From positions 1 to 35,746 of the forward strand of contig JACPXM010000026.1 of the NCBI GenBank assembly GCA_016196545.1: a stretch of DNA of 35,746 bases, written 5' to 3'. Within the stretch, counting starts at the first letter, position 1; the number at the start of each line of letters is the position of its first letter. The notes beneath the pieces are model-generated. The model did not search any database. It worked only from the letters and a program-made list of their open reading frames with translations, and was not told the DNA's origin. Positions 1,044 through 28,391 of the stretch are shown here, one piece after another. The position numbers were made by a program, and so were the translations under genes. This stretch comes from Candidatus Omnitrophota bacterium. Its GTDB lineage: Bacteria; Omnitrophota; Omnitrophia; Omnitrophales; Aquincolibacteriaceae.

Positions 1044-4000
1044 ATGACCCAGGAAAAAAGCTACAAAGACACGTTGAATTTGCCCCAAACGCCTTTTCCC
1101 ATGAAGGCGGAGCTTGCGCGCCGGGAACCGGAAATGCTCAAGGGCTGGCAGGATGCTCACCTCTGCGAAGCTATTCGAAAAAAATCCCAGGGTAAAGACA
1201 AATACATTCTTCATGACGGACCTCCCTACGCCAACGGAAACATTCACATTGGCCACGCGCTCAATAAAATCCTAAAAGACATTATCGTCAAATATAAAAC
1301 CCTGCGCGGTTTTGACTCGCTTTATGTGCCGGGCTGGGACTGTCACGGGCTTCCTATTGAACACGCGGCGCTGAAAGAAATGGGAAAGCGCAAGGAGGAA
1401 GTGGACCGTCTGGCATTTCGCAAACAGGCGCGCGCGTATGCTGAACGCTTTGTCGGAATTCAGCGCGAAGAATTCAAGCGGCTCAGTGTTTTTGGCCGGT
1501 GGGAGAATCCCTACCTCACGATGAATTTTTCCTACCAGGCCACCATTGCCGGGTCCTTTCTGAAACTTTTCAAAAAAGGCTACATTGAACAGCGCTTAAA
1601 GCCGGTTCCCTGGTGCTGGGACTGCGAGACCGCTTTGGCCGACGCGGAGCTGGAATATGAAGATAAAACTTCACAGGCCGTTTATGTGGCGTTTGAGGTC
1701 GTTTGGGACGGCGCGGATAAAGAATTCATGGAACGAATTGGCGTAGGGGCGCAAAAAGGGGACAGGCTGAATTCCAAGCCTGTCCCCTTTTTGAAAGCCC
1801 ATGTTTTGATTTGGACCACTACCCCTTGGACATTGCCCGCAAACGTGGGAATTGCTTACCACCCCAATCTTTGGTATGTGGCGGTGAGGGCGAAGTCAAG
1901 CTGTCATCCTGAATCCCGCCAAAGGCGGGACGAAGGATCTAAAAATGAGATAGTTTATTTTGTGGCTGAGGATTTGCTTGAAAACCTTAAATCTAAAATG
2001 GGCTGGCAAGAGGTCGAAGTTCTGGAGCGATTCCGAGGGGAAGATACGCCCTTCGGCTGGGCCAAACATCCTTTTTTAAATCGTAATTCTAAAATGATTT
2101 CCGCGGATTATGTTTCCTCAACCGACGGGACCGGTTTTGTGCACATTGCACCGGGACACGGGGAAGAAGATTACCATTACGGTACCCTTGAAAACACGTT
2201 GCCCATTATTTCTCCGGTTGACGAAAAGGGGAGATTTACCCCTGAAGGGGGAGGGGGACTGGCGAAGGGGTTTGTCGAAAGTTATCCTGAATTTAAGGGA
2301 GTTCATGTTTTTAAGGCGAATCCCAAAATCACCGCGATTTTAAAGGAAAAAAATTCATTACTATTTGAAGAACCCCATTTGCATTCCTACCCGCATTGCT
2401 GGCGCTGCAAAAAACCGATTATTTTCCGCGCCACGCCGCAGTGGTTCCTAAAAATCGACCACGGCAACTTGAGGCAAAAAATGAAGCAGGCGATTCAATC
2501 CGAAATCAAATTCACGCCGGAATGGGGAAAAAATCGCATTGGTTCTATGGTCGAGACGCGTCCGGACTGGTGCCTTTCCCGCCAGCGTTACTGGGGAGTT
2601 CCCATTCCATTAATCCACTGCCTGTCCTGCAAAAAAATTTACGGCGAAGAAATCGAAGAAACGGTGTTGAAGTCGTTTCAGCACTTCGGCGCCGACATTT
2701 GGTTTGAGAAAGAGGCGGAATATTTCCTGGGAAACAGTGGGGGGCGGGCCCCAACCTGCTGTCCCAATCCGCAATTGAAAAAGGAAGAAGATATTATTGA
2801 CGTCTGGTTTGACTCGGGCGTGAGCCACCAGGCCGTCCTAAAACCTGCCTCCTACACACCCGGTGTGCAGCACACCGGGTGTGTAGGAGGGTTGGGTTAC
2901 CCGGCGGACCTTTACCTGGAGGGCTCCGACCAGCACCGGGGCTGGTTTCAAAGCTCGCTAACTACCGCCCTTGCGCTGGAAGGAAAACCGCCTTTTCGGG
3001 GAGTGTTGACGCACGGTTTTGTGGTGGACGGAGCGGGAAAAAAAATGTCCAAGTCGGCCGGCAATGTGGTGGCCCCTCAAGACGTTATGAAAGAATTCGG
3101 CGCCGACATTTTGCGGCTTTGGGTTTCCTCTTGCGATTATTCGCTGGACGTCCGGCTTTCCAAGGAAATTTTAAAGCAGCTCGCGGACCAGTACCGAAAA
3201 ATCCGCAATACCTTCCGTTATATGCTTTCGAATCTTTATGATTTCAATCCGGAAAAACAGGGCGAACACGCAGGTTCGCCGCCTCTGCACCCCTTGGACC
3301 AATGGGCCATTACCCTAACTCACGAATTGGCCCTTTCTGTTCGAAAAAGTTATGACGCCTTTGATTTCCATAAAATTTATGAAGCAATTCATTCTTTTTG
3401 CACCCTTCATTTGAGCAATTATTATTTTGACGTTTTAAAAGACACGCTCTATACCGCGAAAAAAGACGGATTCCTGCGCCGTTCGGCCCAAACCGGACTT
3501 TTCCGTGTTTTGAAAATTCTCGTCAAACTCACGGCACCCCTTCTCCCGTTTACTTCCGAGGAGGTTTGGAAATCCTTTCCGATTGAGCCGGGCGTGGATT
3601 CCGTTCACCTTGCGGACTGGCCTGAAGAAATTAAAACGGGCGAGCCTCCCGCCAGAGCCAATTTTGAAACCTGGTCGCATGTGCGCCGCATTCGGGACGT
3701 CCTGACGCCGTTTCTGGAGGAAAAAAGGGCCGAAGGGCTTATTGGCTCAAGCCTGGACGCTAAGCTTTCGCTGAGCTCGAAGGACGCAAAGATTGCCTCG
3801 CTTTTAAAAGAGGTTTGGGACGATTTGCCGCGCGTCTTTATTGTTTCGCAGGTTTATCCCTTAGCAGAAAAAGCCTCCTTCACACCGGGTGTGCAGGAGG
3901 TGGTTTACAGTTACGGGGACATTTCCGGGAAAATTTTACTTTCCGTCGAGAAGGCAAATGGTTTAAAATGCGTCCGCTGTTGGAATTATTCTCCCGCCGT

Positions 4001-6968: not shown

Positions 6969-7008
6969 CAGGGGACAGGCATGAACTGCAACTCATGCCT
7001 GTCCCCTG
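6969..7008. repeat. Palindromic element, GGGGACAGGC family, intergenic lspA-lgt
   Basis: CAGGGGACAGGCATGA-actgcaac-TCATGCCTGTCCCCTG, 16-bp perfect arms and 8-nt loop, same layout as 1752-1793. Confidence 0.95.
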
Positions 7009-8898: not shown

Positions 8899-10389
8899 AT
8901 GGCTACCCTATTTGAAAATCCCGCGAAGACCCACCGCAGTCTCTCTAGTTTTATTGAGGAAATCCGGAAAAAAGGAGAACTGGTGGAGATTCATGCCCCG
9001 GTTGACCCTGTCCTCGAAATCACGGAAATCTATGACCGAGTTGTCAAAAAGCAAGGCCCTGCACTTCTCTTTCATAAGGTCAAAGGCTCGCAAATCCCTC
9101 TCCTGATTAATGCCTTTGGCTCTTTCAATCGAATGAATTGGGCGCTTGGCGTAGATTCGGCTGAAGAAATTGCCCAGGCCATTGAGGAATTTCTGGAGAT
9201 GAAAGTCCCGAGCGGCCTTTTGGACAAAATCAAAATGCTGCCCAAACTCGGCCTTCTGAATGCTTTAGGACCGGTGAGTGTAAAAACGGGTGCCTGCCAG
9301 GAGGTCGTGATTCCTGCCGGCCAGGGGCCACTGCTTGACAAACTTCCGGTTCTTCAATGCTGGCCCAAAGACGGCGGAAAATTTATCACGTTTCCCCTCG
9401 TGATTTCGCGCGACCCAGAATCCAACAAACGAAATGTTGGTCTCTACCGCATGCATGTCTATGACAATCAAACGACGGGCATGCATTGGCAAATCCATAA
9501 AGACGGGGCCGAACATTTCCGAAGGCTTGGCAAGGGGAGCGGAAGGCGCATGGAAGTTGCCGTTGCGATTGGTGCCCACCCTGCCACTATGTTTTCCGCG
9601 GCCTGCCCCCTGCCGCAGGGGCTGGATGAATTCATGCTGGCTGGATTTTTGAAAAAATCTCCTGTGGAACTTGTGAAATGCAAAACCGTGGATTTGGAAG
9701 TTCCGGCGGAAGCGGAAATTGTCCTCGAAGGCTATGTGGAAGAAGGCGACCTGCGCCTCGAAGGCCCTTTTGGTGACCATACCGGATTTTATTCCCGCGC
9801 CAAGGAATTTCCGGTGTTTCACCTAACGTGCATGACGCACCGGGAAAATCCCATCTATGTCACCACCGTCGTCGGCCGTCCTCCCATGGAAGACTGTTAT
9901 ATGGGCAAGGCGATTGAACGGATTTTTCTTCCCTTAATCAAGAAGCAGCTTCCCGAAATCGTGGATATCAATCTTCCCTGGGAGGGCTGCTTTCATAATC
10001 TGATTCTCGTTAAAATCCGCAAGAGCTATCCCGAACAGGCCAAAAAGGTCATGAGCGCGATTTGGGGGCTCGGCCAAATGATGTTTTCCAAATGCATTGT
10101 GGTCTTGGATGCAGATGCCAATATCCAGGATATTTCCGAAGTCAGCTGGCGCGTCTTTAATAATGTGGATCCCAAGCGCGACATTGTTACGACCGAAGGC
10201 CCGGTCGACGAGCTCGACCATTCCGCTAGCCGCGACTTTTTCGGTTCCAAAATGGGCGTCGATGCCACGCGTAAATCGGAGGCCGAAGGCATGCAGCGTC
10301 CCTGGCCGGAAGACATGGTCATGGAAGAGGGGATTAAGGAGCGGGTGACGCGGCGTTGGGCGGAATACGGATTGGGAGAATGGAAATGA
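8899..10389 (+). CDS. ubiD: UbiD-family decarboxylase, probable menaquinone biosynthesis
   Basis: UbiD-type sequence (PVSVKTGACQEVV, GLYRMHVYDNQTTGMHWQIHKDGAEHFR, EGPFGDHTGFYS); next to ubiA, ubiX, mqnA and mqnC. Confidence 0.92.
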   Translation: MATLFENPAKTHRSLSSFIEEIRKKGELVEIHAPVDPVLEITEIYDRVVKKQGPALLFHKVKGSQIPLLINAFGSFNRMNWALGVDSAEEIAQAIEEFLEMKVPSGLLDKIKMLPKLGLLNALGPVSVKTGACQEVVIPAGQGPLLDKLPVLQCWPKDGGKFITFPLVISRDPESNKRNVGLYRMHVYDNQTTGMHWQIHKDGAEHFRRLGKGSGRRMEVAVAIGAHPATMFSAACPLPQGLDEFMLAGFLKKSPVELVKCKTVDLEVPAEAEIVLEGYVEEGDLRLEGPFGDHTGFYSRAKEFPVFHLTCMTHRENPIYVTTVVGRPPMEDCYMGKAIERIFLPLIKKQLPEIVDINLPWEGCFHNLILVKIRKSYPEQAKKVMSAIWGLGQMMFSKCIVVLDADANIQDISEVSWRVFNNVDPKRDIVTTEGPVDELDHSASRDFFGSKMGVDATRKSEAEGMQRPWPEDMVMEEGIKERVTRRWAEYGLGEWK

Positions 10390-11306
10390 CCAAGCAAACC
10401 CTACCGGTTCCAGGTTGCCGGCGGCAACCTGGAACCGGTAGGGTTTGTATGTTTTTGGAGATGATTAAATTTGAGCATTCGATTTTTGCGCTTCCCTTTG
10501 CCTACCTTGGGCTTTTTCTCGCATTGGAAAATTGGCCGACCCCGCAGCTTTTTATGGGGATTACGGTCGCGATGATTTCCTTCCGGACCATGGGCATGGG
10601 ACTCAATCGTTTAATCGACAAAGACATTGACGCGCGCAATCCGAGGACACAAAACCGCGCCTTGCCGCAGGGAAGGCTAAAATTGAATTTTGTTTGGGCC
10701 GTCACTGCGCTCTCCTTTTTTATCTTTGAGTTTACGGCACTGAAGCTGGGGCGCCTTTGTTTTTTTCTCTCACCGATTCCCGTTGCGCTTGCCTGGATTT
10801 ATCCTTACACGAAAAGATTTACGTGGTCGTGCCATTTTGTTTTGGGTATCCTATTGGGCATTGCGCCTTACGGGGCCTGGCTTGCCGGCGGGCGCGAGTT
10901 CTCCTGGACGGCAGGGTTTCTCATGCTCGGAGTGGCCTCTTGGGTGGCGGGCTTTGATATTTTATATGCGCTTCAGGATTTAGAGTTTGACCAGAGAAAC
11001 GGCCTTCATTCTTTCCCGGCGCGTTTTGGATTTCATGCAAGCCTTCAAGCCGTAGGCGCGCTTCACGCCTCAACTCTTTTATTTTGGTATCTGGCGGGAA
11101 CTCAGGCCGGACTGGGTTTAATTTATCGGGCGGGGCTTGGTATCATCGCGCTCCTGCTGGTGCGCGAACACGCGCAGGTGCGCAAATTTGGTATTGCAAA
11201 AATCAACGAAACTTTTTTTACAGCAAATGCCAGGGTGAGCTTGTCGATTTTTTTGATGGTATTGCTTGATTTAATCCGGACAAGAAGCGGGGCGGGGGCG
11301 GTATGA
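10386..11306 (+). CDS. ubiA: UbiA-family prenyltransferase (MqnP-like); alternative start 10449
   Basis: FEHSIFALPFAYLG, NRLIDKDIDARNPRT, DLEFDQRNG. Confidence 0.92.
   Translation: MTKQTLPVPGCRRQPGTGRVCMFLEMIKFEHSIFALPFAYLGLFLALENWPTPQLFMGITVAMISFRTMGMGLNRLIDKDIDARNPRTQNRALPQGRLKLNFVWAVTALSFFIFEFTALKLGRLCFFLSPIPVALAWIYPYTKRFTWSCHFVLGILLGIAPYGAWLAGGREFSWTAGFLMLGVASWVAGFDILYALQDLEFDQRNGLHSFPARFGFHASLQAVGALHASTLLFWYLAGTQAGLGLIYRAGLGIIALLLVREHAQVRKFGIAKINETFFTANARVSLSIFLMVLLDLIRTRSGAGAV
10395..10447. repeat. Palindromic element, CCGGTTCCAGGTTGCC family, at the ubiA 5' end
   Basis: CAAACCCTACCGGTTCCAGGTTGCCG-g-CGGCAACCTGGAACCGGTAGGGTTTG, 26-bp perfect arms. Confidence 0.98.
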
Positions 11307-28352: not shown

Positions 28353-28391
28353 TACCGGTTCCAGGTTGCCGCCGGCAACCTGGAACCGGTA
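28353..28391. repeat. Palindromic element, CCGGTTCCAGGTTGCC family
   Basis: TACCGGTTCCAGGTTGCCG-c-CGGCAACCTGGAACCGGTA, 19-bp perfect arms; same arms as 10395-10447 with the centre base complemented. Confidence 0.97.

Follow-up and report, generated by a model that had tools for sequence, protein, structure and literature searches.

Palindromic repeats of three families lie in frame within the isoleucyl-tRNA synthetase gene of an Omnitrophota bacterium

The gene for isoleucyl-tRNA synthetase (ileS) in a Candidatus Omnitrophota bacterium contains several palindromes within an essential coding sequence. The question that this raises is what these palindromes are, how they came to lie there, and whether they benefit the enzyme or are simply tolerated by it. 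The window analysed here is a stretch of 35,746 nucleotides and is contig C56 of the host genome, a MAG of 1.20 Mb in 57 contigs that is 72% complete. A sequence-only reading of the window had proposed that ileS carries five to seven palindromic insertions. The product of the gene has a bacterial IleRS (8c9e, E 5.5e-243) as its top PDB match. The features of the window are collected in Table 1.

Table 1. Positions of ileS, the palindromes within it, and further repeat copies in the window.
Feature	Position	Strand	Remarks
ileS, isoleucyl-tRNA synthetase, 1004 aa	1044..4058	+	insertion host gene; single open frame
Family A palindrome, 42 nt (codons 237-250)	1752..1793	.	5' of editing-domain strand; perfect 17-bp arms, loop 8
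Family B element (TGTCATCCTGAATCCCGCC...GGATCT)	1901..1940	+	imperfect inverted repeat; 13 residues read in editing domain
Weak palindrome, not an element	2228..2271	+	z -0.3; mostly ancestral variable loop
Weak palindrome, not an element	2736..2770	+	z 0.0; ordinary loop-length variation
Family C palindrome	2848..2890	.	after FDSGVSH; perfect 21-bp arms, loop 1; read as (A) + 13 residues + (G)
Weak palindrome, not an element	3261..3280	+	z -1.2
Short family C palindrome	3874..3900	.	imperfect; read as SFTPGVQE; C-terminal region of ileS
Family A copy, intergenic	6969..7008	.	
Family D copy, probably intergenic	10391..10447	.	between stop 10389 and likely start of UbiA-like gene near 10449
Family D copy, intergenic	28353..28391	.	

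Four of the ileS palindromes are copies of repeats present elsewhere in the host genome, and they belong to three families. The family A element is predicted to fold as RNA at -40.4 kcal/mol (z -7.7 against shuffled sequence), and a copy with 95% identity is found at C7:113-152. The family B element (z -3.4) matches a copy at C48:68990-69029 in 39/40 bases (97.5%), the family C element (z -6.4) one at C45:17375-17417 in 41/43 (95%), and the short family C element (z -3.3) one at C26:22040-22066 in 26/27 (96%). The 1004-aa reading frame is uninterrupted throughout, which together with the near-identical copies bears out the earlier proposal that several unrelated families are present in an open frame. 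Its count was too generous: four insertions stand, and the three weak palindromes fold about as well as shuffled sequence. At the first of these, the apparent length difference (residues 402-413) corresponds in part to a homologous 8-residue loop already present in two relatives (G001 and G029). In a palindrome scan, 42 were found in 407 kb of the real host genome, and 188 kb generated by a first-order Markov model held none of that score.

The host protein was aligned with 34 Omnitrophota IleRS sequences, none of them from the host's own genus. In this alignment, the family A, B and C elements coincide with apparent insertions that are absent from all 34 relatives: residues 248-252, 287-301 and 607-614 respectively are missing in every one. 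Residues 248-252 form the tail of the 14-codon family A palindrome, with boundaries that are uncertain by some residues since the loop is variable. The short family C element also lies in a variable loop, with a net gain of about three residues over the relatives. In another genome (L031), the loop that holds family C in the host carries an unrelated insert. A poor AlphaFold2 model built from a six-sequence alignment (mean pLDDT 54, pTM 0.40) shows the inserts at 236-248 and 286-301 as low-confidence coil between strands, much of the rest also being of low confidence, and we give this model no weight as evidence.

The distribution of the repeats was counted in 783 of the 1204 kb of the genome, 90% of it coding according to a simple home-made codon-usage gene caller. 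There are 105 element loci between genes, 11 near gene ends and 17 deep within genes; the density is approximately 1.3 per kb outside genes and 0.024 per kb inside, about 54-fold lower. The automatic genic count is too low for family B because the query library was without imperfect palindromes. The recurrence of the same families in intergenic DNA, noted previously for the window, is confirmed by these copies across the host genome. Because the repeats are mostly intergenic (105 against 17 deep in genes), the genic copies look like rare tolerated survivors rather than elements selected as readable. The proportion of palindromes that lie in genes is unusually high for family A, at four of nine. 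The core GGGGACAG is found in the ileS element and in all the listed family A copies but one, which has GGGGACCG. Of the 116 genomes searched, 18 contain family A cores; the exact family B core is found in the host and at 16 places in G033, and the exact family D (22 copies) and family E (7 copies) cores in the host only. In-frame copies also lie in genes that resemble uvrB, proC, nuoN and the genes for a prephenate dehydrogenase, a YggS-like protein and a DUF1015 protein.

It had been suggested that the elements are selected to be readable as protein, in which case they would be protein-coding selfish elements whose families evolve stop-free frames. This now appears unlikely. Intergenic copies are indeed open in 4.3 of six frames, compared to 3.5 for arm-shuffled palindromes, and the coding-strand motif GGGGACAGG of genic copies is mostly read in one frame, as GDR (9/13). 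However, natural proteins contain GDR too, and this frame count is not clean for that reason. The 54-fold rarity within genes also argues against such selection. Family D is open in 4.9/6 frames on average, yet none of its 23 copies is deep in a gene, and readability is therefore no predictor of genic location. Finally, genic family A copies are open in 5-6 of six frames, compared to 3.8 outside genes, which is what a filter would give.

Just one further PF00133 synthetase was found in the host genome, the valyl-tRNA synthetase (ValRS) on contig C10, and it contains remnants of families A and B. Just before the editing-domain strand, at the counterpart of the ileS site, GGGGACAGTCCCCCAAAAAGGGGACAGGCTT is read as QKGDRL, and the Zn-type loop contains family B in reversed orientation (SKILHPVKSGTQDD). 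By a post-hoc count, ileS and valS hold 4 of the 17 automatically counted deep loci in 0.8% of the coding DNA. Relatives also have repeat-like peptides in ValRS (G031, G037 and G041), as judged by peptide pattern; in the loop before the editing strand these read SRFRGND in G041 and ARSEATKQSSEIA..ARND in G037. In IleRS, G002 has inserts of 40 and 26 residues, the latter in the loop that holds family C in the host, and G041 has inserts of 43 and 16 residues; several of the inserts in these two proteins have hairpin-forming DNA. Different repeat-like inserts are thus present in IleRS or ValRS of several other genera, in part at matching loops, and across the genomes compared IleRS and ValRS appear to be repeated landing sites for palindromic parasitic DNA read in frame with the enzyme.

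Two further observations concern ValRS. A palindrome with 17-bp arms (TCCGGCCAAAAGGTGCC..GGCACCGTTTGGCCGGA) is located at codon 764 of the host gene (L146, G000:C10:6536-9388), and L177 and L188 have inserts of 21-23 residues in the matching loop.

It could be supposed that class I synthetases with an editing domain, namely IleRS and ValRS, are favoured for landing or retention across Omnitrophota, and that the elements alter editing, tRNA handling or mRNA control and are sometimes kept for that reason. We consider this decidedly unlikely; if it were true, parasitic hairpins would repeatedly supply IleRS and ValRS with new loops. Still less probable is that the hairpins were recruited to regulate ileS, whether by acting as translation-coupled terminators, as RNase III sites or in some similar way. 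The family A hairpin, at -40 kcal/mol, has TTTTT at its end, family C forms a perfect 21-bp stem, and related remnants are found in ValRS of the same genome, all of which would suit such a role. However, the inserts are conserved in none of the 34 relatives, and they are in mid-gene, where translation would mask hairpins. The least credible explanation is that these are ordinary hypervariable loops with chance-palindromic DNA, or assembly artefacts, since although the sites are in loops of varying length and there is an apparent fold-back at the contig end (1-120), near-identical copies exist elsewhere, none appears in the Markov control, four internal sites leave the frame intact, and the phenomenon recurs in other genomes, there with different families.

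On the basis of these observations, it is very probable that the inserts in ileS represent non-autonomous palindromic repeats, of REP/TIR/RPE type, that entered the gene after the split from the nearest sampled relatives, with family A most likely moved by a Y1 transposase and the survivors tolerated. Family A would most likely consist of the two ends of a Y1 (HUH) transposon of TIRYT/RAYT type, facing each other and without the transposase gene, the hairpin being moved in trans, end-to-end as a single strand, by an enzyme of this type. Insertions that break the frame or the fold would be lost. Those that remain are in frame and stop-free, and lie in connective-peptide and C-terminal loops that would tolerate extra residues. 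We infer both the movement by a transposase and the tolerance, as opposed to benefit.

The likely mobiliser of family A, judging from sequences in relatives, is a Y1 transposase of RAYT/TIRYT type. A Y1 transposase (PF01797) is present in 91 of the 116 genomes searched, and none was found in the 72%-complete host assembly. Among Omnitrophota Y1 transposase genes, 19 of the 45 tested have flanking inverted repeats scoring at least 20, compared to 1 of 60 mispaired controls. Many of these repeats contain GGGGACAGG or GGTACC motifs, and some pair a family E-like GGTACC with GGGGACAGG; the Y1 genes of L126, L131 and L138 are flanked by repeats with GGGGACAGG, and D/E-like motifs are found at the Y1 genes of other relatives. 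The closest match is in G078, where the ends of the Y1 locus (L079), AAAAAGGGGACAGGCTACTTTT, share AAAAAGGGGACAGGCT with the ileS element, the first 16 bases being those of the ileS element's arm. The motif GGGGWSAS is the published end motif of TIRYT elements (PMC3733652, PMC6006769), and the Y1-flanking repeats in relatives fit such elements. The earlier suggestion that a mobilising enzyme is encoded elsewhere is thus supported by the Y1 genes of relatives, with family A ends exact in G078, and is without a counterpart in the host assembly as it stands; families B and C are matched to no transposase.

Genome G041 also has a Y1 transposase gene (L129, G041:C6:15808-18137) with a full 34-nt palindrome, AAGGGGACAGCGCCCT..AGGGCGCTGTCCCC, on either side. 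The same genome contains 28 family A palindromes.

The ileS elements can be compared with several known systems. Rickettsia palindromic elements (RPEs; Ogata 2000, 2002; PMC2229807) are likewise palindromes found between genes and in frame in conserved protein genes, where the inserts are tolerated. An RPE insert in the guanylate kinase of R. conorii is translated, and the enzyme is active with a changed substrate affinity (reviewed in PMC2229807). As with RPEs, the ileS inserts are in frame in a conserved protein gene and absent from orthologues, and the likeness to elements inside Rickettsia ORFs that had been noticed from the sequence holds for this in-frame insertion, here with a single gene holding several families that are unrelated to each other. 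The likeness is one of behaviour only: RPEs in PMC2229807 are 105-146 bp long, whereas the ileS elements are 27-43 bp, belong to Omnitrophota, and represent several families within a single gene.

Intragenic GTAG/CGTC REPs (Di Nocera 2013, PMC3733652) are closer in size, being 20-40 bp, mainly intergenic, and in some cases within ORFs that include tRNA synthetases. Some ORFs in that study are hit twice by REPs; the presence in ileS of four single elements, drawn from three families, goes beyond the dual inserts that the text of PMC3733652 describes. By inspection, and in contrast to these REPs, the ileS elements A, B and C are without a GTAG tag at their ends, and they appear to be without a CGTC tag as well: one at one end is absent from families A, C, D and E. 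Family B begins TGTCATCC, and the L031 insert starts CGTCATTGCGAG. GTAGG is present in some family D copies, inside the stem and in both arms. The CGTC repeats, Rickettsial ones included, had no transposase of their own in the 2013 survey (PMC3733652).

REPINs (PMC2817692, PMC3116915) are similarly non-autonomous hairpins whose movement in trans is ascribed to a Y1 transposase, the RAYT, but their ends differ in sequence, and no RAYT was seen in the host assembly. The terminal repeats of TIRtrons, or TIRYTs (PMC3733652, PMC6006769), are the nearest counterpart: the family A core fits GGGGWSAS, and Y1 genes of relatives are flanked by such repeats. Like the TIRs of TIRYT/RAYT elements, family A is a short, repeated, mostly intergenic palindrome, and the same sequence flanks a Y1 gene, in relatives only. 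It differs in that its ends are joined as a mini-palindrome and lie inside essential genes, and no TIRYT gene was found in the host assembly.

In-frame palindromic elements are thus already known from Rickettsia and others, as are intragenic REPs in synthetases. The open-access literature searched yielded no account of palindromic repeats within genes of Omnitrophota, and as far as that literature shows, the new points are the phylum, the accumulation of three families within a single essential gene, and the recurrence in IleRS and ValRS loops across genomes. An uncultured phylum joins those with palindromic selfish DNA translated inside essential proteins; several element families accumulate in a single enzyme, as well as in loops of the paralogue and the orthologues; and at least one family (A) is tied to a candidate mobiliser (Y1 TIRYT/RAYT), unlike the CGTC repeats in the 2013 survey. 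Since the combination of loop and element varies from relative to relative, these enzymes are natural insertion experiments on protein tolerance.

It is worth adding some minor observations on the other repeats. An ORF at 10380 seemed to carry an in-frame family D element and was rejected, its start codon being probably downstream. Family D copies (L106-L117) have a common core with variable outer arms, often truncated on one side, and many retain just one complete outer arm, either CTAACAAAACCTACC or the complement, as though the ends had been trimmed on insertion. One family D palindrome (G000:C48:120089-120149) lies exactly between two genes that converge on it, and both seem to take their stop codon from its outer arms. 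Repeat-like peptides of other families (PPHLYPLPHRGEGRV and GAPPCGRPVPPAGGHGGSPPCPPL) are found in two further genes, at G000:C26:48256-49206 and G000:C46:91841-93295. The window itself starts with a perfect 120-nt palindrome (1-120), whose arms enter coding sequence and whose centre resembles a long family C; this is probably an assembly fold-back at a repeat.
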